Below, piece by piece: positions 7,717-63,685 of a stretch of 64,000 bases of DNA. Source of the stretch: Owenia fusiformis (lineage: Eukaryota; Annelida; Polychaeta; Sabellida; Oweniidae). How positions within the stretch are numbered: the first letter of the stretch is position 1; each line of letters starts with the position of its first letter. The stretch is from assembly GCA_903813345.2 (NCBI GenBank), contig CAIIXF020000006.1:2168001-2232000 (forward strand), given 5' to 3'. Made by a program: the position numbers and the translations under genes. The notes under the pieces are model-generated. The model had not been told where the DNA came from and searched no databases. It saw only the letters and a list, made by a program, of their open reading frames with translations.

Positions 7717-11239
<3,523 letters not shown>

Positions 11240-32640: not shown

Positions 32641-32650
32641 TGGTATATTG

Positions 32651-39289: not shown

Positions 39290-39988
39290 GTTCTTATTAT
39301 CAGCGGTGGCGGTAGGCATATATTTTTGTGAGTCATCATGACTCAGGTAGTTTAAAAAAAGTGAGTCACAAGAAAAAAAGTTGAGTCAAAGCTATAAAAG
39401 TGTTTTTCTTGAGTAAAAATGCATACAAAATGTAGAAACCACATACAAAATCTATTTTTTGATTTTGTGCATACCTTTTATTGTACTCTTATAGCACATT
39501 AACAACTAACAATTAATTGATTAGGCAATTGCAAGAAAAATGTCACTATTCTAATCATCTGATTATCTGGTCCAGCGAGTCATGGGTGTGAATGGAGTGG
39601 GACGAGGAGTTTCTCCCTGTGTGGAGTTACACAAATTGGGGTCAAAGCGTTTCATGTTGAAATTAAACATTTTTGCAATCATTCCAAAGTCTAAAACGGC
39701 AATATAAGTCCGACCACAATACTGGGCATCATTTAAATTGAATACGGTAGAATCTTGTAATTATAGCTGATCAAATGAAACCGAAAGTAGATTTGTTTTC
39801 ATACCTAATTTATCATCATTACCCCCCTTAATGTGCGATCGACTGGATTTTCATGTGCCCATTATCTATCTTCATAGGATCAGCTTCAGATCTAGTGAAT
39901 CGAAGATCTTAACTTGAGGGAGTTAATTGAAAATACTTGGTGAAAACTTACGATAGATCGGTCACTGTGAGCACCATTGATAAACCTA
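39290..39988. other. No feature seen
   Basis: AT-rich; nothing recognised up to the retrotransposon insertion. Confidence 0.4.
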
Positions 39989-39996
39989 CTGCGCAT

Positions 39997-41437
39997 CATG
40001 TGAAACACAACTTGTCAATACAATAGAGAATATAGCTCGGGCCCTCGACAACAATAAACAAACAGACATGTTGGTATTAGACTTTTCCAAAGCATTTGAC
40101 ACGGTGGCTCACGAACGCCTCTTGCTCAAACTCGACTATTATGGAATTCGCAATAATAACTTGAACTGGTTCAGATCCTGGCTTGTGGGAAGATCACAAC
40201 AGGTAGTGCTCGATGGTGAATCAAGTTCAAAAACTCCAGTAAAATCAGGAGTTCCTCAAGGAACAGTTCTTGGACCACTCTGTTTCCTTGTTTATATCAA
40301 TGATATGGGCAATAACCTATCATCCTCAGCCAGTCTTAAGCTTTTTGCCGACGACAGCCTTTTATTCATGACAGTCGAAAGCAAGCAAGATGCATTAACA
40401 CTACAGGAGAATCTTGATAAACTGGTCTCCTGGGCATCAACATGGCAAATGAAATTCCATCCATCAAAATGCTATGTGCTAAATATTCACAAAGGTAAAT
40501 CCCCTATCATGCACAATTACACCATGCTAGGGGAAAACCTTAAGTCGGTAACACACATCCCATACCTAGGAATTGACATCACAAATAACTTACGCTGGAC
40601 TACACATATTCAAACTATTGTATCCAAAGCCAATAAGGTGCTTGGATTTCTCAGGCGCAACCTCCATCAATGCCCTGAAAAAGTGAAGGCTCAGGCGTAT
40701 AAGTCACTAGTCCGGCCTAATTTAGAGTATGCCAGCTCGGCATGGGATCCATACCGACAAAAAGATATTGATATGTTGGAACAGGTACAGAGAAGAGCAG
40801 CCAGGTTTGTAACCAAATGTCACTCAAGGGAACCAGGCTGCGTCACCAAAGCTCTTCAAGACCTACAGTGGGAGCCACTGAAGGAGCGTCGAGAGGCTGC
40901 TAGAGTTTTCCTTTTCTACAAAGGAAAGCAGAACCTAGCAGCCATCGACGTGCCTCCATACTTCCGCCAACAGATCAATACCAACACTAGGTTGTATCAT
41001 CCTTCTAAGTTCATACAACCATCAGCTAGAACGGATGCATACAAATTTAGCTATTTCCCTAGGACAATAGCTAAATGGAACACTCTACCTGGTGACATCT
41101 TAGACTGTGACAGTCTAAGTAGTTTTAAATCATCATACTATGCCTATGTCAATAACTGCAATTAAATAGGTGTGTTTTTAATATAGATCTATGTTTTAAT
41201 GTAAAGGGTCCCCAGTGCACAGCAACAAGCCTGCACTACTGGTAAAAGGGGGTGATGTCAACGCGGTAGCCTGACAGTCTCCCCAGGTAAAATGAGTTGT
41301 AAACCATAGATCTATTTTTAAATGTTAAGGTTTTAAATCATATTCTATTCAAATTCTATCACTGTTAAATTATATATCTGCTTTATATGGGCTTATTAGC
41401 CTTTTGCAGATTATTGACATAGACATAGACATTACAT
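39997..41437 (+). mobile_element. CR1/L2-like retrotransposon, 5'-truncated, intact partial RT
   Basis: The frame is open from SCETQLVNTIENIARAL (about 40,000) through ATG 40,068 to a stop at 41,165. It encodes LVLDFSKAFDTVAHERLL, GVPQGTVLGPLCF, the catalytic FADD, YLGIDITNNLRW, SLVRPNLEYASSAWDP and LEQVQRRAARF. The fingers and endonuclease are missing. An 8-bp duplication CTGCGCAT flanks it (39989-39996, 41438-41445), and the 3' end carries a GACATA repeat, as CR1-like elements do. No frame break: a recent insertion. Confidence 0.92.
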
Positions 41438-43218: not shown

Positions 43219-43248
43219 ATGTATATTGGTACATGTTGACAAGATAGG

Positions 43249-43350
43249 ATGCCACATGGTGCCGTGCCTTATCCATTTGGGCAGTGCAGGATCTGCAATG
43301 ATGGAGCAACTGGAGTCCACTATGGAGTGGCAACCTGTGAAGGCTGTAAG
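43249..43350 (+). CDS. Receptor exon 1: first zinc finger
   Basis: Residues 1-34. C-X2-C-X13-C-X2-C, with P-box residues EGCK and the intron directly after the Lys (AAG then GTGGGT), the conserved position in many NR1 genes. The acceptor may be TTTGTAG at 43,212-43,218, which would make 43,219-43,248 untranslated. Confidence 0.9.
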
Positions 43351-46300
43351 GTGGGTTATGTTATTCTATTGGATATACATGTAATAGTTTCATGCAATCT
43401 CAACTTTGAAGAATTTGCTCACAGTTACAAGGTATCAACTGGAGAATATGATAAATGCATATACAGTATAAATATATTATTAATTGACAATTCGATGCAA
43501 AGCGAATATATTTGTGAAAATACAAGGTAAAAGTATTTTTGAATAGATAATGGAAGGGATATTAAATAGTTTAAGTTAGTTTGATTGTTGCCAGCATCAG
43601 AACAACTTCGAGCTGCACAATGTTGAAAATTTGAAATTTACAAGCCACCCTATTTAGAATCTATGTGTCAAAAAAATGATGGGATTTTGGACTACATGTA
43701 TGTTTAAAAGAAATATGGGATCAGTCCGTGATCATCCTTGGTCCAAGGGTATCCAGTTCAATCCATTAATGATGAGCTGGGATAATGAATGCCGTATCTC
43801 ATTGTTGAAATCAATAATACTTGATTTACTTAGCACCTGCCTTTCATTGATTGCATGAAATACATAGCTACTAATATATGTGTTTAATGGTTATGTTAAC
43901 AGGTGAAGAGTTCTCTCAAACAATATCAATATTATTGATGTTAGTATCATGTCACTCAAATGCTAATTTATTGGCAGTTTGATTGAAAATCAGGCTAAGT
44001 AACAGAATTATTTTCAGAACCATCAGAAATTCTCTTTGACAACATATCCTGTTGTAGAGTTATATTGTTATTATTACATGTGATAAATATATCAAGATTT
44101 TTAATCAATTTCATATATTTCATAGGTTTCTGAATTTACTACTTTGAGAATTAAACTTTAGCCAATCATAATAGTTCCGAAGGTTCTAAATTCCAAAGGC
44201 AAGTTCCAATGTGGGAAGTGAGTATGATCAAGTTTGTCTCAATAATGAGAATCTAAGATTAATAAATTTAATTATCACATACATTGGGTTTTCATGGTAA
44301 TCATTTTGATACAATATTTAACCACATGACAATCTGAGTAAATAGTGTGTAAGTGGCTATATTAAATGTTTTACGTGAGCAACCACTGATATTATTAGAT
44401 TTATACATACGAGCTACATATGTGCAGAATACTTTGAAATACTTCAAAAACGTCTTTGTGTATTTTCTTATTTATCTTGATCAAAACATGGGCTTTCAAT
44501 TTCTAGTTGAAAGCCCATGATCAAAAGGTTGTCTTGCATTTAAAAGATTTCAGAGGTTTTACATGCAGTTCAACTGGCAAATTATTTCATACATAGCCCC
44601 AGAATATGTATATAAAATAACTTTTGAAAAGATACATAGGTATCGAATTTTAAATTTATGGACATCAAAGATTGTTAAGATTTTCATAAGTATTAAGTAA
44701 CACTTCTCGAACCATCAATTTGATAGATGGAATGTCCTTTGTCCTGGCAAATTGCTGCTTCTTCAAGTAACAGTCAGCAAATAGGGAATTTGAAATTTCT
44801 TGTAAATACCAAATGGAAATATGAGTCTATTCTCCTTTAATTTCTCAAAAATCTGATGTAGGGATCATTCGAGCCAATGAAGAAATGCACATTTTCAAAG
44901 ATGGAGGTGCTCACTTGGTGGTTAATGCTTGCTAGATATGGCAGCCTTATTCGAGAGTGGGTAACCAGTTTGATCTATTGAATCAGCTTCAAATTTACCA
45001 TGCTCATTAAAATCCTAGTAATTTTTTTTATGTTTTCAGGGTTTCTTTAAACGTAGTATCACAAATGAGCAGAAATACAAGTGTTTTTTCGGAGGATCCT
45101 GTCAGCTAACACCCCAAAATCGCAACCGCTGCAAGTCATGTCGATTCCAGCGATGTCTTTCAACTGGAATGTCTGTTGAAGGTGGGTATCACATCTATTA
45201 AAGGACAACTGAAATAGCTTTTCTCAACTTGCAGCTACAAAAATGCGGTTTTCTCCATTGTAAGCCCAACGTAGAGTTCTTGCGATAGTCATTATAAAAT
45301 AAATGTTAGATAACTGCTAACGGTCATAAATAACGAAATAAAACTAACTGATCAATCAAATTGGCCCCCACGTGATAAGTAACGTCATATACAAAATATA
45401 GCTTTGGTTTATTGGTTCCTTAGTAATCACAACCTCACGGCAACCATAGGATTGTAGTGTTAACCAAAACAAAACATTTTGGCATTATGACGTTATGGGC
45501 CATGTGGGGACCAGTGAGAGATCACGTGGGGGCCAATAACGTCACAACCAATTCGAATATTGCTTATTAAGCAGCTATAACGATCGTTAGAGTGAAATAG
45601 TTTTCGCACTACTGATGAGAAAATATGTCCAAATACATTTATCAAAAAATTATATTGATTCCTTTAGGTTAAAAAATACCATTTCATATCTGCTTTAAGT
45701 GGTGACACTATATCATGTTTGTGTCTAATTTCAGACAGGATTTAATTGATATGGCACGGATTGTGTTCATGTCTCAGAAAGGGAGGGATAATTATTTGAC
45801 ATCTTTCACATTATAGTAGAGAGATTGCAACTGACTTATTGCATGTTTATTATTCCCATATAACACTTAACTTATGAAGCATTTTATTATTCATCATTGA
45901 TTGTGCAGCTCCTACGTCCATAAGTGTGATATTCTTACATAATCGTCATCTATACCTAAGAATATCCCACTTATGGATAGAGCTGCCCAATAAATGATTA
46001 CGTTATCAAACACTTCATAAGTTATACGTTCTACGGGAATAATAAACATGCTGCTGCAAAATCTCTCTAATGACATAGGTCATATATTTATTTTTTCCTA
46101 TATTTATCAGGTCCCACTCTCTATTTTGTCAACCAGGCTGTTTTTAATAAAGAGACTCATATTCCAAATTAGAACTTGATGTATAAGAGACATTAAGATC
46201 ATGTATTTATCCTCTCCAATCATTCTGCAATACTATATCTGTAATACAGTACATGTATGGAATATTAAATCCAGAGTAGATTAAATAGGATGAAAATAAC

Positions 46301-49300
46301 TTATGAGCTAGATTAATTAATTTCTGTGTTTAAGCATCCTTTATTTAATTTATTTGTTTAAACAGTTGTCTATATCTCCTGCATTTGTCATTAAATATGT
46401 TTTACTTTATTGCAAAGTTCATTTTGTGATCATTTGACAAGACCCTCTCTTTAAATCCATGATTTCTTGTTTTAAATCTTACTCTTCATAGCTCACATAC
46501 GACACATAGTGAGTTATTGCAATCACTCACTTGTTCATCTGTCTGTCTGTCCGTCCATCCGTACCTCACAAGAAAATTACTACACAAATACATGATATAT
46601 GATAAGAGAGAGGATTTTAATTTCAAGATAGTTTCCCATCCAGACCTTTCAGGAAACATCCCAAAAAAATAATCATATGGAGTCTATTTGTCACAGATAA
46701 TAAGAATATCAAGAGTCTGCAGTGTGATGAAAAAACTGTGTCCAAAAGAATCAAGTCCTTGGGGAAAAATTGATATATCTCAATGATATATTAAGAAAGA
46801 AACTCTGTCAGCATATATCAAAAAGACAATTGCTAAAAACAAATGAATACAGATAAAATACAAAAAGTCAAAAATTCAAATATTAAAGATATGGTCAGAG
46901 TTCTAAGATGAATAAGGAAATATGAAAAAACAAGAATGAATGGAATTTAGATATCAGTCTCCGAAATGAGGGTAAACTATGGAAGAAAAACAGCAACTAA
47001 ACAAACATCGATAAAGACAGAGGGGAAGGGGAGTGTTACCGGTGGAAAAAGCTTTAACCCACCGACATGTAGTCAGTCACAAGTCTGCAGACCCAACACC
47101 AAACAAGACCAAAGAGAAAAAGTATAGTGAGAAAGAAGACCAAGAAAGAAGAAACTAAAGAGAGAAGGAAATTACAACAACAGAAACAAAGAAGAAGAAA
47201 CTAAGAAGACAAAGAGTGAAAGAAACATACCAATAAAATAAGAAGAAACCAACAGCAACTACAAATAGATTTTCTAGCTGACTGCCAATGATTTAAGACA
47301 CTAAACATGTCAAGATATCACAGTGCATCTAATACTTAAGTCTAGTTTTAGTTCAATTTTGTATATTGTAGTTTTTTTAGTTACCCCATCACTAGTGTAA
47401 ACATATTGTTATGTCACCACCACAAGTGTCAACATTAATGTCACCACCACACATGTTAACATCAGTTATATAGTCTCCAAATTTATGTGGTGGGTGTTCG
47501 GCATTTGGCATTCAGGGGTTGGCATTCGCTTGTTTTAATTTGATTACAGCACTATTTGTCATAGACTTACTTATTATTGAGTCATTATCTTATTCATGGT
47601 TTGACATTTTATCATTTTACTGTGTTGTTTTATTTATATATTAGCTATGATAAAGTTCATATTCAGTATTACTTGCAATATGAGGTAAAAATCGATATAA
47701 GTTACACAAGCTCCTGTAATTAATATTATTTAGTGTCATATGACTGACAATATATAAAAGCTATCTCATCCCATCTTTGACTTTAAAGGTGTTATAATAC
47801 ACCTCGGATGTAAATGCTTATTTTCTGTCCTGTTACTGTGTGGCGTTGTGTGCCATGCGCCTGATGATCTTCATATCACCAATCAAAAGTGTCCAAATAT
47901 TCATTTTACCAGCAGTCATACTTATAAATTTTCATTTTATGGCTCTTTATTGAAAGATCCCTTGAACTGATGTTTATTACTGCCAATTTGTTAATGCTAT
48001 CCCATCAAAATAACTGTCAATTCTTAAATACCATCCCTTCCAAATGACTGCCATATTTGTAAATGCTAATCCTTCCAAATGACTGCCAATTTGAAAATGC
48101 TAACCCATCCAAATGACTGTCAATTTGTAAATGCTATCACATCAAAATTACTGCCAATTTTTAAATGCATTCCCGTCCAAATAACTGCCAATTTCTAAAT
48201 GCTTTCCCATTCAGTAGACTGCCAATTTGTGAATGCTAACCGATCCAAATGACTGCCAATTTGTAAATGCTAACCCATCCAAATGACTGTCAATTTGTAA
48301 ATGCTAACCCATCCAAATGACTGTCAATTTGTAAATGCTAACCCATCCAAATGACTGTCAATTTGTAAATGCTATCACATCAAAATTACTGCCAATTTGT
48401 AAATGCTAACCCATCCAAATAACTGCCAATTTCTAAATGCTAACTGATCCAAATGACTGCCAATTTGTAAATGGTATCTCATCCAAATGACTGATGATTT
48501 GTAAATACTATCCCATCCAAGTGACTGACAATTTGTAAATGGTATCTCATCCAAATTACTGCCAATTTTTAAATGCATTCCCATCCAAACAACTGCCAAT
48601 TTGTAAATGCTTTCCAATTCAGTAGACTGCCAATTTGTAAATGCTAACTGATCCAAATGACTGCCAATTTGTAAATGGTATCTCATCCAAATGACTGATG
48701 ATTTGTAAATGGTATCTCATCCAAATGACTGATGATTTGTAAAAGGTATCCCATCCAAATGACTGACAATTTGTAAATGGTATCCCATCCAAATGACTGA
48801 CAATTTGTAAATGGCATCTCATCCAAATGACTGATGATTTGTAAATGGTATCTCATCCAAATGACTGACAATTTGTAAATGGTATCTCATCCAAATGACT
48901 GATGATTTGTAAATGGTATCTCATCCAAATGACTGATGATTTGTAAATGGTATCCCATCCAAATGACTGACAATTTGTAAATGGTATCTCATCCAAATGA
49001 CTGATGATTTGTAAATGGTATCTCATCCAAATGGCTGATGATTTGTAAATGGTATCCCATCCAAATGACTGATGATTTGTAAATGGCATCTCATCCAAAT
49101 GACTGATGATTTGTAAATGGTATCCCATCCAAATGACTGATGATTTGTAAATGACATCTCATCCAAATGACTGATGATTTGTAAATGGTATCCCATCCAA
49201 ATGACTGATGATTTGTAAATGGTATCTCATCCAAACAACTGCCAATTTGTAAATGCTTTCCCATTCAGTAGGCTGCCAATTTGTAAATGCTAACTGATCC

Positions 49301-52300
49301 AAATGACTGCCAATTTGTAAATGCTGTCCCATCTAAATGACTGACAATTTGTAAATGGTATCTCATCCAAATGACTGACAATTTGTAAATGGTATCTCAT
49401 CCAAATGACTGATGATTTGTAAATGGTATCCCATCCAAATGACTGACAATTTGTAAATGGTATCTCATCCAAATGACTGATGATTTGTAAATGGTATCTC
49501 ATCCAAATGACTGATGATTTGTAAATGGTATCTCATCCAAATGACTGATGATTTGTAAATGGTATCTCATCCAAATGACTGACAATATGTAAATGGTATC
49601 TCATCCAAATGACTGATGATTTGTAAATGGTATCTCATCCAAATGACTGATGATTTGTAAATGGTATCCCATCCAAATGACTGACAATTTGTAAATGGTA
49701 TCTCATCCAAATGACTGATGATTTGTAAATGGTATCTCATCCAAATGACTGATGATTTGTAAATGGTATCCCATCCAAATGACTGACAATTTGTAAATGG
49801 TATCTCATCCAAATGACTGATGATTTGTAAATGGTATCTCATCCAAATGACTGACAATTTGTAAATGGTATCTCATCCAAATGACTGATGATTTGTAAAT
49901 GGTATCTCATCCAAATGACTGATGATTTGTAAATGGTATCTCATCCAAATGACTGATGATTTGTAAATGGTATCTCATCCAAATGACTGATGATTTGTAA
50001 ATGGTATCCCATCCAAATGACTGACAATTTGTAAATGGTATCCCATCCAAATGACTGACAATTTGTAAATGGCATCTCATCCAAATGACTGATGATTTGT
50101 AAATGGTATCTCATCCAAATGACTGATGATTTGTAAATGGTATCTCATCCAAATGACTGACAATTTGTAAATGGTATCTCATCCAAATGACTGATGATTT
50201 GTAAATGGTATCTCATCCAAATGACTGATGATTTGTAAATGGTATCTAATCCAAATGACTGATGATTTGTAAATGGTATCTCATCCAAATGACTGATGAT
50301 TTGTAAATGGTATCCCATCCAAATGACTGACAATTTGTAAATGGCATCTCATCCAAATTACTGATGATTTGTAAATGGTATCTCATCCAAATGACTGACA
50401 ATTTGTAAATGGCATCTCATCCAAATTACTGATGATTTGTAAATGGTATCCCATCCAAATTACTGACAATTTGTAAATGGTATCCCATCCAAATGACTGA
50501 CAATTTGTAAATGGCATCTCATCCAAATTACTGATGATTTGTAAATGGTATCTCATCCAAATGACTGATGATTTGTAAATGGTTTTTCATCCAAATGACT
50601 GCCAAAACTTATGTCACAAAAGTAAACTTCATAAAACATGGAATAAATTAAATCATATTACAGTAAAACCTGTCTTAGTGAACACCTTTCTCTAGTGAAC
50701 ACCTGTGTTAAGTGATCACCACTTCAAGACTTATTTTACATCAACTTCTTTGTAAAATTTCTCTGTGTAGTTAATACCTACCAACAATGAACACTTTTTT
50801 GTGGTTCCATAGGTGTTCACTATATACAGGTTTTGCTTTATTTCTTTCTAATTCTATTGTCCAGATCATGTTTGTTATTACTATAACTTGATTTACATTG
50901 ATCACCGATCAGGTTTTTTATGGGATAGGTCAATGACCTTGGTGAGTTAAAAATCTTAACCAGAAAGCTTGACATGAACATTTAAAAACATTTAAACAAA
51001 GAGTATAATCATAGGTAGTGCAACTCGCTATTATTATTAGCTTGTGGCACTAAGATTATCAAAATGTGCTCCTCAATCCTTTCCAGTTTCAGCTTAGTTA
51101 TTACATATATTGGGTTTGGTTATTATCCCACCGAACAAATGTCCGTCTGTTTGTCCGGGCGATAACTCAAATACCGTTTCACGGATTTGATTCAAATTTT
51201 ATAGGCTTATGCCTTATGGGTGTAGGACCTCTGCTCGAGAAGGAATTTTCAATATGGCCACTGAATTCAAAATGGCCGTCATTTTTCGTAAAAAATGTAA
51301 TCTTTAATAACTCAAATACTAGTTTGGGGATTTGGTTCAAATTTTGTATGCTGATGCCTAGGGACACAGTAGATATGTTCGAGTAAAAATTTTCAAGATG
51401 GCGGCTAGATTTCCAAATGGCGACCATTTTTCGTAAAAAAACTTAATCTTTGATAACTCAAATACCAGTGAACGGATTTGGCTCAAATTTTATATGATAA
51501 TGCCTAGGGACACAATAGATCTGTTCAAGAAAGAATTTTCAAAATGGCGGCTTGATATTCAAAATGGCGGCCATATTTCGTAAAAAAGGTAATCTTTGAT
51601 AACTCAAATACCAGTTAACGGATTTGGCTCAAATTTTATATGATAATGCCTAGGGACACAATAGATCTGTTCAAGAAAGAATTTTCAAGATGGTGGCTTG
51701 ATATTCAAAATGGCGGCCATTTTTCGTAAAAAAAGTAATCGTCCATAACTCAAATACCAGTGAACGGATTTGGCTCAAATTTTATATGATGATGCCTAAG
51801 GACAAAAGAGATCTGTTCGAGAAAGAATTTTCAAGATGGCGGCTGAATTTCAAAATGGACGCCATTTTTCGTAAAAAACGTAATCTTTGATAACTCAAAT
51901 ACCAGTGAACAGATTTGGCTCATTTTTTATATGGTGATTCCTAGGGACACAGTAGATCTGTTGGAGAAAATTTTTTCAAGATGGCTGCTGAATTTCAAAA
52001 TGGTAGCCATTTTTCATAAGAAAAAACGTAATCTTTGATAAGTCAAATACCAGTGAACAGATTTGGCTCAAATTTTATATGCTGATGCCTAGAAACACAG
52101 TAGCTCTGTTCGAGAAAAAAAATTTAAGATGGCGGCTGATCTTCAGAATGGCTGCCATTTTTCATTTTCATTTTCGTAATCTTTGGTAACTCAACTGCCG
52201 TTCGGTGGGATTTGCTACTCCGTGGAGTTGCTGTTTTTCTAATTGTAATTCTTATTTTAAAACTGTTTTAAACTATTGTTGACATTTTATATTTGTATAC

Positions 52301-55300
52301 TTATGATCACAGACTTTCCATGTTTGTCAAGTTAATGTGTCTGGAACTATTGAATTGTCAGTATAAATACTCATATCTGCAAAAGGCCGCAAAAAATAAA
52401 TTTTAACTGCAATGTACTATTTTTCTTTAATGGTGTCTCTGCAGTCATACATTTACATGAGGCCTTCATGCAGACCATGTAGAAATCCTCATACAGTGTA
52501 TATCGGCATTGGTACCAACTGGACACATCATGAATATTTTAGGCTGTTTGTTGAGATGATCATAACTCAAAGTTTGATAATACTGAAATGTTTTTAAATG
52601 CCTAATAATTCCTTTAGGATGTACATTTTAAATTTTATTCATAGCGACCACAAAAGCAATATGATCATTTCTTGTTCTCCCAGCATTTTTGGCAACAAGA
52701 ACTATGTTTTAATGTTTTTCTCAGCCAATTTGAATAAAGAAATGATTTCCCTAAAAATCAGAAAACAAACTTTGTGTGAGTACAGTAGAACCTGCTAAGT
52801 GGAACACCTCTAGCTCTGTAAGTGGAACACCTCACAAGTGGAACACTTTTTTGCGGTCCCAAGGGTGTTCCACTTACACAGGTTCTACTGTATAATGTTT
52901 CTAAATGACAAATTCCCAGTGAATATTCTTCACTTTTGTTGTAAATGGAAATGGCTTATTTCTGAATCACCAAATTTGCCAAGTTTTGAATCTCATGGAA
53001 CAATACTTGAATTTTTCAGCTGTAAAGATGGGCCGCATTCCAAAGGTTGATAAAGAGAGAGCTCTTGAAGAGGCCCGTAGGGGAGAGAATCAGCAGCCAT
53101 CTACACAACAGCAACAGCAACAACATCAACAACAACAACAACAACAATTGCCTAGTATGTTACCAGAGGGTAGCATGCTTGATCGCTTCATATATGGAGA
53201 CAGGCCTCAACAGAGGCAGCCCCATGTACCACCTGACCAACCCACCCTGTCTACCGATACTGGGAATATGTCAGGACCAAGTAACTCTGATGTAGGCCCA
53301 ATGCATCCCCTGGGTGAAGAGAAGAGACATAATTACCCACAGACCCACGCTCCACCCCGTCAGCCAAGCAATCACCCACCACATCAGCCTCACCCCAACT
53401 CAAATCAGGTTTATCCCCACTCCCAGTCACATCATCAACAGCCCCACCAACAGAATGGAAGCTACATGAGAAAGAGTATTGAACCTTATAGAGAGAAGAT
53501 GTACCCTCAACATGCTCAAATGGCAACTCAGACAAAGCCCTTTGAAAATCAGTATTCAGTAGAAGCACAGAGAGAAGCAAAAGACCCCCATGTCGGGCTG
53601 CATTTCATGCCACAAATAAAAAATGAACCCTCCTTGAGAAACTGTAACGGTGATGTAATACCTGCCCAATTGCCCAGTCCCCAAGCCCTCCCAGCTCCAT
53701 GCCCCACAGGTGCAAGTATGAATCCCGGGGGCTCGGTGTCCCCAAACTCGAGTGGAACATCTAATGTTGCCACGCCAACCAGTCAGCAGGCAGCGATGCC
53801 TGATATTATCCATCGGAGAGTATACAGTCCCAACGTCATCAAAGAACTTTTAAGTCAAGTGATTGAAAAGAAAACTGTTAAAGAGATCCCTGATCCTTTG
53901 CTCAATAAATTAATCACATCAATACGGAGTAATCGCCATAGAGACATTCTTTATCAACGTGACAACTGTGAGTCTATGTCATCAAGTAGCTCTGGTTTTA
54001 ATAGTGCTAACAGCTACACTGAAGAATTACTTGAGAAACGTAAGACAGTTTACCACTCTGAAGATGAGCTCCCAACAAAGCTTCATCGATCTAACAGTGT
54101 GCCATATTCAAATGAAGAGGTAATTGACAGCCATGACCATCATAGGATGCAGGTTGTTCCAGAAGATTACAGACCTATGAACTCTAACCACACTGACCCT
54201 ACAAGACACATTGGGGCCTCGCAAGCTCAGCATGGGAACTATGGAAAAGATAACACCCATAACTCAAATTTAGAAGGCATAAAAGGTGAATTTGACCAGT
54301 ATTTGAAACCTGAGAGGAAAGGTACCAATAAGTCAGCCTATCCCTTATCCGATGATGATAGACGACTCGAGTCCACCATTGACCAGTTGAAACTAGCATT
54401 TGAGAATAGTTTTGCTGAGGAGACGAGAGGGTTAATGGAAATGATAAGAAAACGTTTGGCCCTTCCTGAAGTGAGTCTTCCTTTTTTGTTTGCTCACTGT
54501 CATTATTAGGAACAAATGTTGAATGAGATTGTTGTGTTTAATTATGAAGAAAGGATATATGCCATAAATGTATTGAGATAATTTTCACACTGTGTCTTGA
54601 TTCTTATCCACTTTTCCACCAATTTTTAGAAAATTTTGCACTAATGGGAGCAAGGACTCGTATAGATGGCAGTTAACTACTAGGTTGTTGTTCATATCTG
54701 GCCCATTGGTTTATGTGTAAATATTGCTGTATTAAAACTTCAAATTCTCTACATTTATCAAAAAAATATCAAATTTTCCTTCATTATTATTTACAAACAT
54801 GTTTTAAGATTCAAAATCATAAGGTTTTGGATATTTTCGATTAAATTTATCTTGGGAAATTTTTAGAGCAATTTCTACATGTTAAAGTATGCTATTAAAC
54901 CTACTGAATTTTATGCCATCTATTGACAGTCTTGAAGGCCATTGATGTATCGTTTTTTTAGAAAATTTTGCACGAGTTGATGTAACGATCTAGGTAGAAA
55001 ACTCACACAACCATTTTTCTTGTAGGATCAAAGGCCAAAGAATTTTGAATCAGACTCAATTGAAGATTTAAAGATGATCTGGAATCAGTTGATCAGCTCT
55101 ATTCCGAAAATATCACAAAAAATACTTGGTAAGTAAAGCATTCTCATTATGTCACAAGAACAATGTGCAAGTCAACTATCCTTTGTATATCAAAAATCAC
55201 TGTGTAAGTCAACCTTATTTTCTATTAAGTTTAGAATTAAAAGAAATCATAATTTTAAAACCTTTCTGGATGATACATCTGAAACACATTTAATGGCATC

Positions 55301-57469
55301 AAGATTCTAAATCATTCTGAATCACAAAACTCATCAAATCAACTCAAGAATGAGAATTTATTTGAATTATGTAATTAATTCATCCACCATTGCTTGTTTT
55401 TGTCCCAGTATTTAGCAATGGTATACCAGGCTTCAATGACTTAGACAAGGAAGACCAAGGCAAGCTCATTAAAGATGCGTACTTTGACATATGGATGGTG
55501 AGTTTCAGTTACTATATGCACTCGATTTTAGTCTCTCAATTTTACTTGCATTATAAACAAATATTTAAGCTGTATGTTAACATATGTTAAAGCTGTGTAT
55601 AAACAAATATAGGAGCTGTATGTAACGAATATAAAACCTGTGTATTTAAACAGATATAAAAGCTGTATATAAACATATCAAATATAAAAGCTGTATATAA
55701 ACAAATATAAAAGCTGCATATGAACAAATATAAAAGCTGTATATAAGCATATCAAATATAAAGCTGTATATAAACAAATATAAAAGCTGCATATGAACAA
55801 ATATAAAAGCTGTATATAAACATATCAAATATAAAAGCTGTATATAAACAAATATAAAAGCTGCATATGAACATTTCAAATATAAAAGCTGCATATAACA
55901 AATATAAAAGCTGTATATAAACAAATATAAAAGCTGTTTATAAAGATTAATATAAAAGCTGTATACAAACAATCTCCATTAAACATTGCAGATTACCTCT
56001 AGTGGCTATATCCAGGGAGGTGAAAGTTACATGTTATTGGACAACGGCATATTTTACTCCAAATTCTGGATGAGTAGGATTCTACCAGCAGATCTGATAG
56101 GAAAGATGTTTACAGTCGCAGAGGGGTTTAATGAGTGTATGCTAACATTCTCAGAACTCAGTATTCTATGTTCAGTTCGCCTTACAGACCCGGGTAAGTA
56201 TCTTTTGAGATGATTTATACAGTAGGCCCCTCAAAGCCAGCTTTTGCCAAGGGGGTTTTGCCAGAGTGGTTCACTTTGACAAATTTGGCCCATATCACAT
56301 AAAAAATGCCTAGAATGGTGAAAAACTGCATGATTTTACAGGGGGTATGGTATACACACTGGTATACATGTATATATTCTGCTGGTGTATTGTATATATT
56401 TACTATTTTGAATTGTCTTTTGAAGAGGGGGATATTTCTGTCATGATAGTGGCATAATTATGATTTTGCATAGTGCCATCCCACCTTTTTCATCACAATT
56501 TCAAAAGGTGGCTTTTACAGACAGAGTATATCAAGTTTTTGGCTGATTCATTTTTTTGCTAGACTATCTTCAGTCATTTTGGATCATTTTCAATATACCT
56601 TGTCATCTCAATTCCAGGAGAGCCGCTCATAGAATTCCATTTAAATGTGGTACAGATGTTTGACAGATATTAAATGAACATCTTGAATTTTCTTGGCCAT
56701 TTTCTTTACTTTACAAAATGTTGGATAAGAGGTTTTATTTTGCAAAACCCTGTCATGAATTCATTTCATAGGCCATGGTATAAAACATATTTTCACCCTG
56801 CTTTCAGGTCGGTCGTGTATCAAAAACACTAAAGAGTTAAAAGCCATTAATAATCACTTATTGGACTGTCTTGCCAAAGAGGTGCCCATCAATCACCCTG
56901 AGAATCACTCCCGGATCCTCATCAACATATTCCGCCTCTTACCTACACTGGACAGTCTTGCTGAGCAGAGCAGTAACGTCATCATGAACTTCTCCCTTCA
57001 GTTTTCTGAAGGTAAGCCTGAGTGGTCTAATAGTTTTTCATGGAATGGTTCATGGAGTTGTGTCTAATTGAAGTTTCAGTTGTAATTAAGTATAATTCAC
57101 TTGGTGATATCAATTGAAATGTTTATTTGGGTTGAAATATATTTTGGAAATAAACATAGGATATATTTGATATCATAGGATTTTCCTCTTGCTGATAGGA
57201 TGATAAGTCATATATAATCATGTGATATCACATCACAAACAAAAATATACCTGCCCAATACCTGCCTTAATCCTGAAGCTGATGTATAAATGTCGGCCAA
57301 AATGAAATTTTATCGAAAAAATCATTGTTTTTCAGATAGTCTTGCAGGAACTGGGAGTAGCAAGTCTAGCTCTGCCAGCTGTTCTGACAATACACAGAGA
57401 GAAGCTGAGAAATCTGATGATAAACGTAACAAATTTGACAGACAACCAGTTGTTGAAATGAGCCAATGA
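43249..57469 (+). CDS. Nuclear receptor, NR1-like, eight coding exons, 808 aa
   Basis: Exons: 43249-43350, 45040-45181, 53020-54470, 55026-55128, 55409-55497, 55992-56193, 56808-57011, 57336-57469; all GT-AG, phases consistent, 2427 nt. It encodes a nuclear transcription factor with an N-terminus of only 12 residues, a DBD (13-95: CRIC...CEGCK, GFFKRSI, C-X5-C-X9-C-X2-C) with an NR1-type extension AVKMGRIPK, a hinge (96-530) with polyQ (106-124) and Ser-rich parts, and an LBD (530-764) with the signature FSNGIPGFNDLDKEDQ in helices 3-5. The last exon is polar and has no AF-2 helix. The extension and LBD suggest the Rev-erb/E75/ROR/PPAR side of subfamily NR1, or the mollusc-described NR1P group; I cannot decide. 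The Met is chosen because TGA at 43,237 lies in frame upstream. Intron 2 is 7.8 kb and full of repeats. Confidence 0.92.
44486..44518. repeat. Perfect 13-bp hairpin in receptor intron 1
   Basis: CATGGGCTTTCAA, 7-base loop TTTCTAG, then TTGAAAGCCCATG. ATCAAAA on both outer sides is a direct repeat. Confidence 0.85.
45040..45181 (+). CDS. Receptor exon 2: second zinc finger
   Basis: Residues 35-81. It starts GFFKRSITNEQKYKC after TGTTTTCAG and ends in GMSVE with donor GTGGGT. The D-box loop is CFFGGSC. NRNRCKSCRFQRCLSTGM is a typical second-finger helix. Confidence 0.95.
45361..45536. repeat. Inverted repeat with CACGTG in intron 2
   Basis: TTGGCCCCCACGTGAT (45361-45376) and its exact complement (45521-45536). 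Just beyond, AACGTCA / AACGTCA occur outside and inside, so this is the core of a larger, decayed foldback element. Confidence 0.75.
45815..46080. mobile_element. Foldback element in receptor intron 2
   Basis: About 265 bp folding on itself: AGAGAGATT...GCATGTTTATTATTCCC on the left, GGGAATAATAAACATGC...AATCTCTCT on the right, with TCCATAAGTG...CACTTATGGA near the centre at about 45,950. Confidence 0.82.
46081..47977. other. Intron 2: one repeat head, A-rich stretch, otherwise nothing
   Basis: 46,495-46,560 (GTGAGTTATTGCAATCACTC, then (GTCT/GTCC)n) is the 5' part of a repeat type. About 46,980-47,240 is strongly purine-rich (AAGAAGAAACTAAG types). 47,395-47,510 carries the GTCACCACCACAAGTG / ATATTGTTAT fragment. 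Confidence 0.5.
47978..50604 (+). repeat. 34-bp satellite array in receptor intron 2, about 77 units
   Basis: The consensus is GATGATTTGTAAATGG followed by TATCTCATCCAAATGACT. Units left of about 48,640 are of an older, mixed type (GCCAATTTGTAAATGC then TAACCCATCCAAATGACT); to the right they are more uniform and alternate GATG and GACA variants. A composite with CCATTCAGTAG recurs near 48,210, 48,610 and 49,260, showing block duplication. Open frames on the - strand are by-products. Confidence 0.97.
50661..50838. mobile_element. Small MITE with CAGTAAAACCTGT ends
   Basis: CAGTAAAACCTGT at the left, ACAGGTTTTGCTTT at the right, TA beyond both. The interior repeats AGTGAACACCT. Related in end and interior style to 52,783-52,890. 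Confidence 0.7.
51126..52242 (+). mobile_element. Helitron-like non-autonomous element, copy 2
   Basis: It starts TCCCACCGAACAAATGTCCG after A and ends GTTTTTCTAA before T. The 3' hairpin is GCTACTCCGTGGAGTTGC; its stem is one pair longer than in copy 1. TCCCACCGAAC is inverted as GTTCGGTGGGA near the end. It holds about seven ~143-bp units, each with AACTCAAATACCAGTGAACG and ATGGCGGC phrases. Confidence 0.82.
52783..52890. mobile_element. 108-bp MITE close to the hinge exon
   Basis: Ends CAGTAGAACCTG / CAGGTTCTACTG with TA on both sides. The interior repeats AAGTGGAACACCTC. It lies 130 bp before the acceptor of receptor exon 3. A similar interior phrase is found at 59,850-59,890. Confidence 0.85.
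53020..54470 (+). CDS. Receptor exon 3: DBD extension, long hinge, LBD helix 1
   Basis: Residues 82-565 in one exon. It begins AVKMGRIPKVDKERALEEAR, passes a polyQ tract, then a Pro/His/Gln-rich region, then a more structured block VIKELLSQVIEKKTVKEIPD and a Ser-rich stretch, and ends with LESTIDQLKLAFENSF and MEMIRKRLALPE, likely LBD helices 1-2. Donor GAA then GTGAGT. Confidence 0.92.
55026..57469 (+). CDS. Receptor exons 4-8: ligand-binding domain and tail
   Basis: Exon 4 holds IEDLKMIWNQLISSIPKISQ, exon 5 the LBD signature ending DAYFDIWM, exon 6 the beta-turn to helix 8 (YMLLDNGIFYSKFWM, CSVRLTDPG), exon 7 helices 9-11 (NHLLDCLAKEV, ILINIFRLLPTLDSLAEQSS) and exon 8 a Ser/Lys/Asp tail ending VVEMSQ. 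No hydrophobic-hydrophobic-X-Glu-hydrophobic-hydrophobic motif follows helix 11. Confidence 0.9.
55590..55980 (+). repeat. Minisatellite in receptor intron 5
   Basis: About 17 units of some 23 bp around ACAAATATAAAAGCTGTATA. It ends roughly 12 bases before the exon 6 acceptor at 55,991, leaving an A-rich region where a polypyrimidine tract is expected. Confidence 0.93.
56225..56345 (+). mobile_element. Decayed copy of the CAGGCCCGTA MITE
   Basis: Matches 27,416-27,560 in AATGGTGAAAA..CTGCATGATTTT and TTTGGCCCATAT, with poor ends. Located in receptor intron 6. Confidence 0.65.
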
Positions 57470-58120
57470 ATGTAATGGATCACACGACATCCTCACATAT
57501 GTGGAATGATAGAGAATGGGCCTGTTTGGAAACTGGGGACTAACTTATTAAGTTCACCCCTATAATATCATCATAAAATGAGAAATATTATACTCTGTTG
57601 TTGCATTTTGCAGTTTTAGTATGATAAATGTGTACAGATAGATATATCAAAGTGATATGATGTATTTTGATATACCATTAGAAAGATGTACAGCTATACT
57701 GTTGGTCTTTGCTCTTGGATAGGCCTATAAACTTGTTTTTGCAGCTATTTAAACAGATAGAGAAGGTAGGTAGAGTACCTTAACACCTAATTCAGGTAGG
57801 CAGAGTACCTTAACAAACACTGATGTAGATATATGCATTGTTGTCTTGTATATCTGATATTTGTGTCATCCAGCATATACATATATAAATATAATGTTAT
57901 AGAAATTGTATATACAGAGCATAATTAAACTAACAGGATAAATGTTTATATTAATCATTAAAGCTCAAAGAAAGCAGTTTAAGGTAACTTTATATATGAC
58001 CATTTCTGACATTAAACACTGCTAGTCCAAGATTAAAATGTAATATTTAGGGTTCTGCTGCTTCAGAATTGAGTATATATGAAGGCATCTTGCTCAATTA
58101 AAACATTCAGTGAATAAAAT
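57470..58120 (+). other. Receptor 3' untranslated region with poly(A) signal
   Basis: AATAAA at 58,113-58,118 is the first full signal after the stop (TGA at 57,467-57,469). A pair of GGTAGGTAGAGTACCTTAAC-like direct repeats lies near 57,765-57,815. Confidence 0.55.
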
Positions 58121-59130
58121 GAAGTTATGGACAGAAACTTCCTAACAGTTGAGACACTACAGTATTTAGATGGAGGCTTGTTGCATTTATCATTAAGATA
58201 TTTGTGATTTGATTGATGGAACATAACATGTAGCTACCTGTGAACCAATCAGATCCCAGATGTCTTAATTTACTCATTTTCAGTTTCTTGAATGCCTGTA
58301 ATGTATCTGCTTGATATATTTATGTATATGTCACACAAGAATAACAAAAAACTCAGGGTCAAAAATTATATTTCTACATAGGTCATTGATTCTGACGTGT
58401 CTATTTGTAAAAATCAGTATACACCATTGCATATTTTCCTATGTTATGAAACTTGACAAAAAAATGGAAGATGTAGTTATAAATTATTTCTTAAAGTTAT
58501 TAGTTTTTAAAGAATATTATTAGACAGCCTTAACTAGTCAAAATGGGGGAATGTTACTCTGGCACATCTCATAATTTAGGCTGGCCCTTTACCATAAGTG
58601 GTAGGCCAGGCATTTCTAATTCGTAATTATGCACATTTCAAATGTTGCTTGAGACCCCCATGTAGGAAAGGTCAGGAATTTGATTGGCAGTAATGTCCCA
58701 GGGGTGGGATTTTGACATCCTACTTTGCCTGGGAGTAGGGCCTTTTGAAATGTATATTCTGGCAATCCTGGTAATCCAGAATTTTGACAATGTTTTATAA
58801 GCTATTATTTCTTCCAAGGTGGGGAAATTGACTCCTTATGCTGTTCTCAGGGAACTGACTTTGACTGCTCAATTTATATGTTGTCAAAATCTGATCCACT
58901 TTCTGTTTGGAGGAGTCACATGTAAACCTTTGAATGGTGCATAAAGATCTCTATTTTGGAAATTAACTTTGTATTGATTTGAAAATGAATATTACATAGT
59001 AAATATTTTGGTTCATGAATATTCTCTATTGTGCAGTTAAATATGTATTGTAAATAATGTTGTACAATGATGGGTCCAGATGTTCTGAAAAGTTGTACTA
59101 TTGTATATATTATACACCTCATGGACATAA
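58121..59130. other. Intergenic, no feature seen
   Basis: AT-rich, nothing recognised. Confidence 0.4.
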
Positions 59131-59837
59131 TTGCTGGAATTACACATGGCGTTTTACAAAAGCGTCTTCGGTTTTAACCAGGTTTAAGAATTAGGTGTAA
59201 TCACAATTGCGGTTTTACAAAAGCGCTTTTCTAAAACTCCAAGAACCCTTGTCACTAGTAAACGGCATAAGTCGTTAGGCGTTTTAAGTGTGCAGTGTAA
59301 TACCGATCGGTTTTTGTAAGAAGCCTTATGCGGGTTTTTACTAGTTTTTAACACTTGCCCTAAACGAAATATTTGATACATGATAAGAAATCCGGTCACA
59401 CTGCTATCTGGCTATATCTAAATTGAAAATGGATGAATGTCGCCAGGTCACATCGAAATCAAGTGTTATCTTCAGAGAATATGTACATATCTTTCTTTTA
59501 CCTTTTTATTATGTTTTCTCATAATTAATAAAAGATAAATAAAAATTATGCAATGTCATCAGGTCATGTATTTCTAATCAAATTATGGAAGATCAGTTTT
59601 GTCTTAGATGCAGCAAGAATACATTTACAGGAGATGTACACTTGTAAACATGTATGCTGGATATTATCCATAACTACATCGTTAAAAGTGCACGAAAGGC
59701 GTTTTAGAAAAAACAGGTGTAATTCCAAAATATAAATCCTAAGACGCTTTAGAAATGATGGTGTAATCAGAATGGCGATTTTGTAAAGCGCCTTCCACTA
59801 AAACGTTTTAGCGGATTTTAAGGTGTAATTCCAGCAA
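59131..59837. mobile_element. 707-bp TIR element
   Basis: Ends TTGCTGGAATTACAC / GTGTAATTCCAGCAA, continuing inward with inverted GGCGTTTTACAAAAGCG-like motifs that recur several times. No clear target duplication and no protein. Confidence 0.78.
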
Positions 59838-59932
59838 ATGTTGAACATCTCCCAAGTGGAACACTTTTAGGGGTATTAAAGGTGTTCCCCTTGGCCCTTA
59901 CATAGGCTATTCTATACTTATTTTTAAATGTA

Positions 59933-60139
59933 CAAAGTGTCCCAAAAGTATGGGACCCCCCAGGCAGATATATACCAATATATATATCAATGCCTCCATA
60001 GTAACCTGTAGACGTTTTTCCATTTGTGAGTTGAAACATGAATGTAGCTTTGGATAAGCTTTAAAATGATATATGACACATACTATGGAGACATTGGTAT
60101 ATATCTGTCTAGGGGGTGCCATACTTTTGGGACACCCTG
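59933..60139. mobile_element. 207-bp mariner-type MITE
   Basis: Ends CAAAGTGTCCCAAAAGTATG / CATACTTTTGGGACACCCTG, nearly palindromic over about 60 bp each, with TA on both sides (59931-59932, 60140-60141). The GTGTCCCAAAAGT end is typical of mariner families. Confidence 0.88.
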
Positions 60140-60141
60140 TA

Positions 60142-60639
60142 TAATAAAGCTGAACATATATAGATGTTTTATAAATTAGTAGCCTAATGCTGCATTGCAT
60201 GGTTTATGCCTATCATGACATTGTATAAAAATATATATAATTCAGAAATTTAATTCTAGTAGCAAGGGTTCTACAGAACCTAATGTTTGCCATAAGTGCT
60301 ACTGTATTGCTTTATAACAGCCCTTTGGTCAAATTATGAGAGTATGAGACCAAACTTGAACAAGAATTATTCCTTGTAAAACATCATAATAAGCCACCAT
60401 AACAGAGAAGTTTGAGTGAGATCTGCTTCATTACATTTAATTAAGTAAAACCTGTTTAATATCTGAACATCACCGTATTCAAATTTGCAATGTCCCATTA
60501 TCTCCCACATTAAAAGATCCTAAAATGTGAACACCTACTATTTCAAACACCACTCCAAGATGCCAAGTGGCATTCAGATTAGGCAGGTCCTGCTGTATTT
60601 TATTGATAACTGTAGTATACTGTTACTGAACTGATTTTT
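60142..60639. other. Intergenic; a decayed MITE trace
   Basis: AAGTAAAACCTGTTTAAT (near 60,444) to GGCAGGTCCTGCTGTATT (60,582-60,599) may be a decayed relative of 50,661-50,838. Otherwise nothing. Confidence 0.4.
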
Positions 60640-61590
60640 GGCTCACACAGTGAGCCTATGGGATTGACCAGGCGTCCGTCCGTTGGTCCGTCCATCCGTC
60701 AACATTGGCCGCACAAATTAAAACTGCTATTCGGATTGAGTCATATCCACATTCATTTTATGCATATCCATAATGCCTATTTGACCTATCATCGCAATTT
60801 CCCAAGTTCGCCCGGTTTCCGAGAAATTGCAGATTTTGACGTCAAAAAGTCAAATTTTCTGTAAATACTAGACACTTTGTTGAAGTAGAACTTTCAAATA
60901 ACTTTTAGTAGTTGGTGTATATGCAACTTATGTCCTCTGAAGATTTCAAAGCTCTTGGAATTACGGTTTTTGGTGTTTACTCTATAAAATTTGAAAAAAA
61001 GTAGGACTTAGTCATTTTCAGGAAACTTTCTCATGTATAAAGTCAATGGCAGGTTTTGTGATTGACAAGATTCTTAAAGTTTGCCTTATACTTGATCATT
61101 TCCTACAATAAATTACATCATTAATAGATTTAAGAATTCCCTACATATTTCTCAATATATGTCAGCATCAAATTTTTACAGTTTTTGAGATATTTGATGT
61201 AAAAAACAGTAAAAATAAGTTATTTTTCAACTTGCTTCAATTTGACCAAATTTTTTTTTGAAAATCATCTACAAGTTGCCAGGAGTTCAAATTTGACCTT
61301 TACTTGACCTTCAGTGACCTTCGAAAGGTCAAAAAAGTAGATTTTTCAAATTGATTTTTGGATGTAAATTTTGGTCAGCTTAATCACAAAAGACCTTACT
61401 GAGCTCTGAATAAGTAGAATTTTCAAGGTCAAAGGTCATCAAACTAAGTCACACAACTATGCTATCTAAGTTTCTATCTAAGTTCGAGACTACAAATTCA
61501 AATCAATATTTTTGTTTGAAAGTCAGGATATAAATTCCTCTGAAGGTTCCAAACTGTGTGAGCACAGGACCGTGGGTCCTTCATTCTTGT
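60640..61590 (+). repeat. Hairpin-ended non-autonomous repeat
   Basis: It starts with the perfect hairpin GGCTCAC-ACA-GTGAGCC (60640-60656), followed by a GTCCGTCC tract. It ends with GTGTGAGCACAGGACCGTG and the hairpin AGGACC-GTG-GGTCCT (61566-61580), then TCATTCTTGTT. The interior has GACCTTCAGTGACCTTCGAA-type phrases shared with 11,950-12,135. Same ending style as 2236-4090. Confidence 0.7.
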
Positions 61591-61671
61591 TGGCCTCCTA
61601 TCATATATTAATGTTGCTCATACTGCATTTGCTCAAGGTGATATTGCATAATCCTACATGTATGGTGGAGT

Positions 61672-61769
61672 TAGGATATGGGATATCATTACCAGGGATA
61701 GGATATTGGATATCTTTACCAGGGATAGGATATGGGATATCATTACCAGGGTTAGGATATGGGATATAT
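61672..61769 (+). repeat. 30-bp minisatellite, 3.3 units
   Basis: Unit AGGATATGGGATATCATTAC plus CAGGGATAGG-type text. The GISLPGIGY-like frame across it is a by-product. Confidence 0.9.
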
Positions 61770-63520
61770 TTTCTCATCAGAATTGTCCCATCATTTTCAC
61801 ATTCTACAAACTGACACGTTGCAAATGAATCTGATTGAAATTCATTCTAAATAGTGTAACATTGTTTCATATTGAAACCAAGGTAACAAGGAATGCCTAC
61901 TTTTAAATGTACAAAATGTATGAAATGGAATGATGTCCATATTGTTTCATATTAAAATCACCTAAACAGGAATGCCAACCATTCTAATGGAATCAAAATT
62001 CAGTTGTATTTTCCTCTGAGTAAAGTTTGTGTTTTCCATTAAATATGGGAGTATACAGTATTAACAAGAAACTTATTTACAGACCATGGTAGTGTTTTAT
62101 TTACAGCTGTGTGTCCCGATGCAGCTGTGACATCTGTAGCAATTCTTGTTCAGTTTTTCTCTTTTTAGCTCATTTATTAAACAAATGGTAAGAAAATCTG
62201 AGAAAGAAAAATTGAAGGACATGGTATTAAAAATCTATGTTTGATTTGATTTTTATGTCACCACCACCACAAGTGGTGACATATTGTTATAATCTCCAAC
62301 TTTTTGTGAATGGTGTTCGGCAGGTCGATGTCTGTAACAAAAGGCAGGTGGTGACATTTTGCATGTTAATGCCTTGCAAGAATTCATTTTTTAAGTAAAT
62401 GGATTGTTTTTATCCTGACCTAATTGTGCAACTTAATTTTAAATGTTAATTATGTTGTATGTTTGTGATGTCAAGACCGTGCAGTATGATGAAAATAAAT
62501 CAAAAAATAAATGTATGTATTGTCATAAAACATCTTTTGTGTTTCTAGAATTACAAATTGAGGTGAAAATCCCATCCGTTCAACTGTTCAAAGAGCTGTT
62601 CTCGAGTTCAACAAGTATTTAGAGGTAGAAAGTCCAATGATGATAGCTTAATGAAAATTATTTGAAAAGCTTGTACTTTACATGTTTTTGTATTTCACAT
62701 TTGAAACTGCTCCCCAAAGCTGGACAAAAAGTAAAAAATTAAAAAAGAATCGATACATCTAATGTCATTAATACCTTCAGAGTTGTGTTGAAAACATATA
62801 TAGATATTATCATGTCATTATCGTGCCTTTAAAAGATAAAAAAGCAATGGTATGATACTTTCGCGCTCTCCTAGAGTACTTGGACTTCAAACAGAAGTGA
62901 AGGTTATCCACAAATGATATACACATGACAGTTAATTTTTCTTGTTATAAATTTGTGAAGTTTTTTAAGTGTTTTTTTTGAAAAATAGGATGCTCCCAAG
63001 CTGGACGGATCTTCCGATCACCTGACGTCATATGGCACATAAGAAAATGGGACCGAAAAAGAGCTCAGTTTGCGAGTTATTTGGCTTAGAGGTGTTAGAT
63101 ATACAAGTTCTATTGAATATAAAATTAATGTCTAATCTAAGCTCTTTTGTTCTGGTCTGCTCAGGGCATCGCTCTCCATCTTTTCCATTCTCTTGTCATT
63201 TTTTGCAATACTGAGCGCAATTGTATGTTTCCTGTTGATAAAACTTTGTGTAAGATACAATTTAGAAGATTTCAAAATGCATGGATTTTCTCATACTGTT
63301 TGAGATGACAATGGGGGGGGGGGGGGGGTAATGATATTTGATAAGGTTGTGTGTTTTCTGACTCTTCATGAAATCTGCAGTCTTCCGGGTTTTATCTGGA
63401 TTAGGTCCTGGTTTATAATTAACAAACATAAACGCTGATTGCAGTTTTAATCTGTTTATTTGTATGCTCACGATTCAAATACAGATTTTAATTCACTTCG
63501 TATTCGTATGATTGTTTGTT
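61770..63520. other. Intergenic; two small repeat features
   Basis: 62,252-62,345 is the GTCACCACCACCACAAGTGG / ATATTGTTAT repeat. A G run of about 16 lies at 63,314-63,329. The rest may hold the 3' UTR of the - strand gene at its right end, but nothing is certain. Confidence 0.45.
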
Positions 63521-63538
63521 CCAATTTATTTTCACTGA

Positions 63539-63685
63539 TCAACCAGGGCTGAGCTGGTTTTCTTCATTCCAGTCAGCAAACACAGGCCAAGACCCTGTAC
63601 CAGGATGGGGATTCGGAGGCACTTCACAAGTGTGCAAATAGTGTTTCCATTGATCACGTGTCCATCCAAATACACAAAAGCCAAA
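63539..63685 (-). CDS. Last coding exon of an unidentified gene entering from the right
   Basis: On the - strand, after a pyrimidine-rich CTTTTTAAG acceptor (+ strand complement 63,686-63,694), 48 codons read FGFCVFGWTRDQWKHYL...EVPPNPHPGTGSWPVFADWN...LSPG and stop (TGA, complement 63,539-63,541). The exon is richer in G and C than its flanks and the residue mix (five Trp, several Pro) is unlike chance AT-rich frames, so I take it as real coding sequence. It starts in phase 0 if the acceptor is right. I do not recognise the family. An AATAAA on the - strand (complement 63,525-63,530) lies only ~10 bp past the stop, too close to be the only signal; TTTATT also occurs near 63,452. Upstream exons lie beyond the window. 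Confidence 0.6.
   Translation of the reverse strand, partial: FGFCVFGWTRDQWKHYLHTCEVPPNPHPGTGSWPVFADWNEENQLSPG

Follow-up and report, generated by a model that had tools for sequence, protein, structure and literature searches.

An intact, divergent NR1-like nuclear receptor gene of the annelid Owenia fusiformis, with almost no A/B domain and possibly two alternative ends

To which branch of the NR1 nuclear receptors does a gene belong whose DNA-binding domain (DBD) is canonical and whose remaining parts fit no named subgroup, and where does such a gene begin and end? These questions are raised by a locus in a 64,000-nucleotide stretch of the Owenia fusiformis genome, the whole of which is called the window here. 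Eight exons with GT-AG borders (43249-57469, plus strand; Table 1) join into one open frame of 808 codons, which runs from an ATG at 43249 to a TGA at 57469 without a stop or frameshift. All eight zinc ligands are present in the DBD (residues 13, 16, 30, 33, 49, 55, 65 and 68), the P-box is EGCK within an intact EGCKG, and the second finger is followed by the extension (CTE) AVKMGRIPK. The Pfam zf-C4 family matches this domain at 98.2 bits against a cut-off of 21.1, and the two C4 fingers and the P-box that mark the superfamily are both found. A scan of the genome with the zf-C4 profile recovers both DBD exons within the window, one at C6:2211282 and the other at C6:2213037, and a search of solved structures with the DBD gives Rev-erb alpha first (E = 3.1e-28) and then PPAR gamma (E = 7.2e-25). 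The hinge comprises about 440 residues (about residue 90 to 530), is rich in Q, H, P and S, and lies in one open exon. A preliminary description of the locus had placed the first zinc-finger cysteine at residue 13, called the DBD canonical and given the hinge this length, and the joined frame bears out all three. The idea of a conserved hinge was dropped, since a 444-residue piece of exon 3 contains no Pfam family and the genome search gave no second match to the hinge. Judged from its sequence, the gene is real and intact.

Table 1. Exons of the NR1-like gene and candidate exons at its two ends (positions in the window)
Feature	Position	Strand	Evidence
Probable 5' untranslated start of first DBD exon (43219; alternative 43173)	43219..43248	+	acceptor 9.6/9.7; in-frame TGA 43237-43239
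Coding exon 1: start and first zinc finger to EGCK	43249..43350	+	frame, Pfam zf-C4
Coding exon 2: second zinc finger	45040..45181	+	frame, Pfam zf-C4; acceptor 15.3
Coding exon 3: CTE AVKMGRIPK, long hinge, beginning of LBD	53020..54470	+	1451-base open exon
Coding exon 4: LBD, before and into helix 3	55026..55128	+	NR1D2 alignment starts here
Coding exon 5: LBD signature VFSNGIPGFNDLDKEDQGKLIK	55409..55497	+	frame, solved-structure match
Coding exon 6: middle helices of LBD	55992..56193	+	frame, solved-structure match
Coding exon 7: LBD as far as helix 11	56808..57011	+	frame, solved-structure match
Terminal exon A: Ser/Lys-rich tail without AF-2	57336..57469	+	acceptor 9.3; codon score 0.18 per codon
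Terminal exon B (proposed): ROR-like AF-2 helix 12	62549..62622	+	in phase; acceptor 7.1

The ligand-binding domain (LBD) is much less typical. Pfam PF00104 gives it 19.1 bits, under the cut-off of 23.5, and the gene is not among the matches when the genome is scanned with the Pfam LBD model. The domain is recognized by the search of solved structures, in which Rev-erb beta (NR1D2) comes first (E = 2.7e-17, query residues 57-234), the next distinct receptor group is LXR alpha (E = 2.5e-11), and the best 60 of 292 PDB matches are all NR1 (NR1D, LXR and PPAR). When the domain was scored with 17 LBDs of NR1 type and with a portion of one from NR6, the highest values were those of Rev-erb beta (65.6 bits), Rev-erb alpha (56.2 bits) and the E78 of the same genome (56.0 bits). 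Both the LBD and the CTE are therefore nearest to NR1 members. The positions of the LBD introns, compared by eye with those of other receptors, gave no clear match.

Two positions in this LBD depart from the common pattern. The helix-11 His is the haem ligand of Rev-erb and E75, and the helix-3 Lys forms part of the charge clamp. In helix 11 the gene has Ser where the aligned Rev-erb, E75, ROR and E78 rows have His; QSSN replaces the MHSE or LHTE of NR1D receptors, and the NR1D-type gene of the same genome keeps LHSEK. In helix 3 it reads FSNGIPGF, with Asn at the usual Lys, versus FAK or YAK before the IPGF-like motif in most others; further exceptions are fly E75 in the row as entered by hand (FAGM) and, in the same genome, L048 (FARG), L053 and L059 (FCKR) and L058 (FAQS). 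Because of the helix-11 Ser and the helix-3 Asn, the protein is unlikely to sense haem as Rev-erb does, and equally unlikely to form the usual helix-3 charge clamp.

The 498-Mb assembly was searched for other nuclear receptors. It contains 66 zf-C4 matches, and 36 further DBDs were assembled for the tree, four of them by hand. An NR1E-type gene (E78) at C6:33.93 Mb pairs with fly E78 (100/99) in the DBD tree, and an NR1F-type gene (ROR) at C7:16.04 Mb falls in a ROR group (99/94) of the same tree. An NR1D-type gene lies at C7:26.88-26.90 Mb, its DBD and LBD being linked by position; over DBD+LBD it pairs with fly E75 at 87/95, short of a star. Since the genome holds these separate NR1D-, NR1E- and NR1F-type genes, the gene studied here is an additional NR1 gene. 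TR, RAR, EcR, RXR, HNF4, COUP-TF, ERR, NR4, HR4 and four HR96-like receptors were recognized by the DBD tree or by eye, and ER and FTZ-F1 were named by eye. Five NR1-like loci (L019, L028, L030, L033 and L040) have no subgroup in the trees, and L021, provisionally labelled NR1C, has an LBD that does not support PPAR. A genome search with the LBD of the present gene brought up nothing closely related, the one match outside the gene having an E-value of 1.85. The annelid haemoglobin-linker domain PF16915, which we take to be specific to annelids, is above its cut-off at three places of the assembly, one of them with an internal stop. The haemocyanin domain of molluscs gave no match, in a search that had no hit at all and so does not establish that the domain is missing. 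Two loci look by eye like receptors with two DBDs, and the part of the 2DBD-NR study drawn on here gives two 2DBD-NRs for O. fusiformis (PMC10497141).

In the trees and alignments, most reference rows were entered by hand; L051b of this genome is not included in the LBD alignment, and L058 was left out of the tree made from it. The preliminary description had called the gene NR1-like and left its subgroup uncertain. It was right to do so, as no named group holds the gene with support in the LBD trees or in the concatenated DBD+LBD tree of 15 rows; the firm fall into a named subgroup that the description had set against its own view is not seen there. In that 15-row tree the gene has no supported partner and an end branch of 2.76; left free, the tree pairs it with L019/L028 at a support of 43/0. 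None of the eight placements tested on it by p-AU was rejected. The best reading of these data, and one that we hold to be somewhat better than an even bet, is an additional NR1 receptor gene that is intact, evolves fast and stands nearest to the NR1C-F groups, although no tree places it inside NR1C-F with support.

It is quite possible too, if short of an even chance, that the gene arose by duplication of the annelid E78 or Rev-erb/E75 gene and has evolved fast. When the CTE is added to it, the DBD has its best scores with Drosophila E78 (101.4 bits) and the E78 of the same genome (101.1 bits), followed by own HR4 (100.9), fly HR4 (99.3) and Rev-erb (99.2), the LBD ranks Rev-erb before E78 as given above, and E78 is the nearest row by path in both the LBD and the concatenated trees. 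Holding the gene in a clade with E78, represented by one row only, improves the fit over the free tree by 0.84 log units (p-AU 0.533); for a clade held with NR1D, which is not grouped with the gene in the free tree, the p-AU is 0.386. However, the long end branch and the lack of a supported grouping speak against such an origin, and the other placements are unrejected as well: L033 (p-AU 0.425), L021 (0.357), L030 (0.352), LXR/EcR (0.275), ROR (0.175, at 4.49 log units worse) and PPAR (0.119). A lineage-specific, fast-evolving duplicate and a new lineage explain the data equally well.

It is rather unlikely that the gene belongs to the mollusc NR1P receptors or to CgNR1CDEF/MgNR1DEF, as a member of a lophotrochozoan-wide group that was named in bivalves. 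In the portion of Vogeler 2014 (PMC4070562) used here, NR1P is the name given to eleven oyster receptors and MgNR1G, a split from the common ancestor of NR1C-F is suggested for it, CgNR1CDEF alpha and beta and MgNR1DEF are left unplaced near NR1C-F, and the mollusc-specificity of NR1P is stated as not clear. The neighbourhood is thus the same as that of our gene, but the source organism is an annelid and not a mollusc, and the eleven oyster members contrast with a gene for which neither LBD nor hinge finds a close relative in its genome. Membership in NR1P is a lead at most.

A relationship to NR6 (HR4/GCNF), or a chimeric protein combining an NR1 LBD with a DBD of NR6 type, is very improbable, even though it has supported groupings on its side. 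In the 67-row DBD tree, which was built without the CTE and does not include L034 or the first-DBD exon of L037, the gene groups with HR4 and GCNF (99/80 and 97/95) on a long branch; the HR4 of the same genome is the best match of the DBD core without the CTE (93.0 bits) and stands close behind E78 when the CTE is added; and the 17-row DBD+LBD tree, which includes this HR4 and L040, again gives HR4 as partner (86/84). Both trees, however, carry a long-branch warning, long branches meeting in the latter, and with this HR4 and L040 left out the 15-row tree described above results. The highest DBD identity in the 67-row set is with human PPAR alpha (57%). NR6 membership as given by the DBD-only tree was rejected, because the CTE is of NR1 type (GRIPK, not MPGGR) and because the LBD is not NR6-like: compared with a portion of the LBD from the HR4 of the same genome it reaches 2.3 bits (E = 6.1), versus 65.6 bits with Rev-erb beta. 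A pseudogene or an artefact of the gene model is hardly credible: the divergent LBD under the Pfam cut-off and the long branch would fit it, but all zinc ligands are kept, 808 codons in eight GT-AG exons are free of stops and frameshifts, and the held-out acceptors (see below) score well.

Is the near-absence of an A/B domain, also claimed by the preliminary description, a matter of a missed exon? An acceptor matrix was trained on 30 LBD-exon acceptors of other receptor genes of the same genome, picked by profile score (the training scores average 10.4 and go down to -5.7; among all AG of the window, 9.2 marks the 99th percentile), and the seven internal acceptors of the NR1-like gene, held out from training, score 4.1 to 15.3. 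Exon starts at 43173 and 43219 score 9.7 and 9.6, respectively, and both precede the in-frame TGA at 43237; the acceptors after this TGA are poor (-8.6, -5.8, 0.6 and 3.4), the last one lying beyond the point where the first Cys codon begins. In the 33 first-DBD-Cys exons of other receptors in the genome, 18 have an in-frame upstream stop, and the frame of the other 15 stays open as far as the retrieved sequence extends. An acceptor of at least 4 lies between stop and Cys in 16 of the 18, which probably have a coding exon upstream, and the NR1-like gene resembles the other two. Because the good acceptors precede the TGA and 16 of 18 other exons differ, the gene is unusual in its own genome and an N-terminus of 12 residues is the best reading for this splice form, to which the earlier claim is thereby limited. 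An upstream coding exon may be joined at 43285, but the acceptor there scores only 0.6.

At the other end, the eight exons and the single open frame of the earlier model stand, whereas 57469 is probably not the only end. Exon A encodes a tail without AF-2, and its codon score is matched by 3 of 266 non-coding open runs. This test is weak, because five of the seven other exons of the model, several of them good ones, score 0.03 or less, and codon bias was set aside as an exon test. When the region 57012-64000 was scanned for phase-compatible exons with an AF-2 motif, one was found, at 62549 (mean of 0.2 in 30 mononucleotide shuffles). An AF-2 profile built without the NR1-like gene was used to rank 273 phase-compatible candidates from the two strands of the window, 16 of which follow exon 7 on the plus strand. 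This exon B comes first; its E-value is 0.11 and its margin 0.9 bits (7.1 versus 6.2 for the second-best). Exon 7 joined to exon B reads in frame to ...LQFSEELQIEVKIPSVQLFKELFSSSTSI and a stop, giving a protein of 788 aa. An ATTAAA lies at 62738, 116 bases past exon B, and the codon score of exon B is poor (-0.26 per codon), like that of the 55026 exon. Since it lies on the correct strand, in the correct phase and 5.5 kb downstream, and since its proposed AF-2, VQLFKELFSS, resembles the tail LHRELFSS of the ROR of the same genome, the AF-2 exon is probably real and the gene incomplete at 57469. The gene may therefore end in either of two ways, one with AF-2 and one without it, and the absence of AF-2 would be an effect of the last exon chosen; an LBD simply without AF-2, as in Rev-erb, was dropped on this ground. 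A third end is a possibility: a weak internal donor of exon A (1.7) would define a 90-base cassette, 57336-57425, in frame to 62549, and a protein of 818 aa.

How might such a receptor work? DBDs of this kind recognize AGGTCA-type half-sites, and the GRIPK extension contacts bases 5' of them in Rev-erb, ROR and E78. By analogy, the present protein would bind such half-sites and would read the 5' bases with its own GRIPK extension. It would work without an AF-1 domain, perhaps with the long low-complexity hinge in its place. The prediction for its LBD is a changed coactivator groove and no haem sensing of the Rev-erb type. The form with exon B would be able to recruit coactivators, and the form with exon A would act as a repressor or competitor, so that one gene would make both activator and repressor forms if both ends are used. 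We also consider, as a doubtful proposal, an unnamed lophotrochozoan NR1 lineage without A/B domain, in which alternative last exons would switch between an AF-2 activator and an AF-2-less repressor and the Rev-erb-type haem site would have been lost.

In short, on sequence grounds a known receptor family gains a new member here, and an unusually divergent one. The literature search, most subscription papers and supplements being outside its scope, found no description of the gene, and for Owenia fusiformis and nuclear receptors it found only the 2DBD-NR work. Few nuclear receptors of annelids have been described, and this gene extends their set by a divergent one; it also suggests that those bivalve receptors which resemble NR1C-F and have no firm place may have counterparts beyond the molluscs. 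For flatworms, the part of Wu 2021 (PMC8363021) used here lists divergent groups named NR1a and NR1b.

Among the named systems close to this gene is NR1D (Rev-erb alpha/beta and E75), which gives the best solved-structure match for both DBD and LBD and shares the GRIPK extension; the identity to human Rev-erb alpha is 35% over 263 DBD+LBD columns. It differs from NR1D in having KRS instead of RRS after the P-box, Ser instead of the helix-11 haem His, and probably an AF-2 exon, and a separate NR1D-type gene exists in the genome. NR1E (E78) has the best DBD+CTE score and the third-best LBD score; however, this genome has its own E78 at another locus, with a DBD that hardly differs from that of fly E78 (entered by hand), whereas the NR1-like gene is far off. 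The AVK.GR extension is common to NR1F (ROR/HR3), of which the genome also holds a separate gene. The mollusc NR1P and CgNR1CDEF/MgNR1DEF receptors, likened here by their description in the portion of PMC4070562 used, are likewise novel or unplaced NR1 receptors near NR1C-F in a lophotrochozoan, but they are mollusc receptors, whereas the gene described here comes from an annelid.

In the same genome, an NR1-like receptor (loci L051-L052, G000:C9:27795800-27813100) has its last ligand-binding domain (LBD) exon in two candidate copies. Both copies are in phase and end in an AF-2-like sequence (the C-terminal helix 12 of the LBD), and the pair reads as mutually exclusive last exons. At another locus, L059 (G000:C5:9924500-9930500), a second LBD was found that closely resembles the LBD of the L053 receptor (C5:35.6 Mb). 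No match to zf-C4, the Pfam family of the DNA-binding domain (DBD), lies near L059 among the listed matches of the genome scan, and this locus may possibly represent a receptor that either lacks a DBD or carries a divergent one.

The window itself contains the repeats and coding-like features listed below.

Repeats and coding-like features of the window
Feature	Position	Strand	Location	Copies	Basis
Minisatellite, 34-base unit	47979-50605		within intron 2 of the receptor gene	~77	
Satellite array, 39-base unit, 95% match	32649-36866			~108	
Open frame resembling LINE-type reverse transcriptase	39984-41165		upstream of the receptor gene		by eye
Tandem repeats resembling C2H2 zinc-finger coding units	9503-9984	minus			by eye

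Elsewhere in the genome, odd P-boxes (VPCER, SSCAH) occur in the zf-C4 domains of L010 (G000:C8:25.3 Mb) and L017 (G000:C12:18.06 Mb). Two further loci, L034-L036 (G000:C8:9515-9535 kb) and L037 (G000:C8:15137-15140 kb), have exons that, judged by eye, are arranged like those of 2DBD nuclear receptors.
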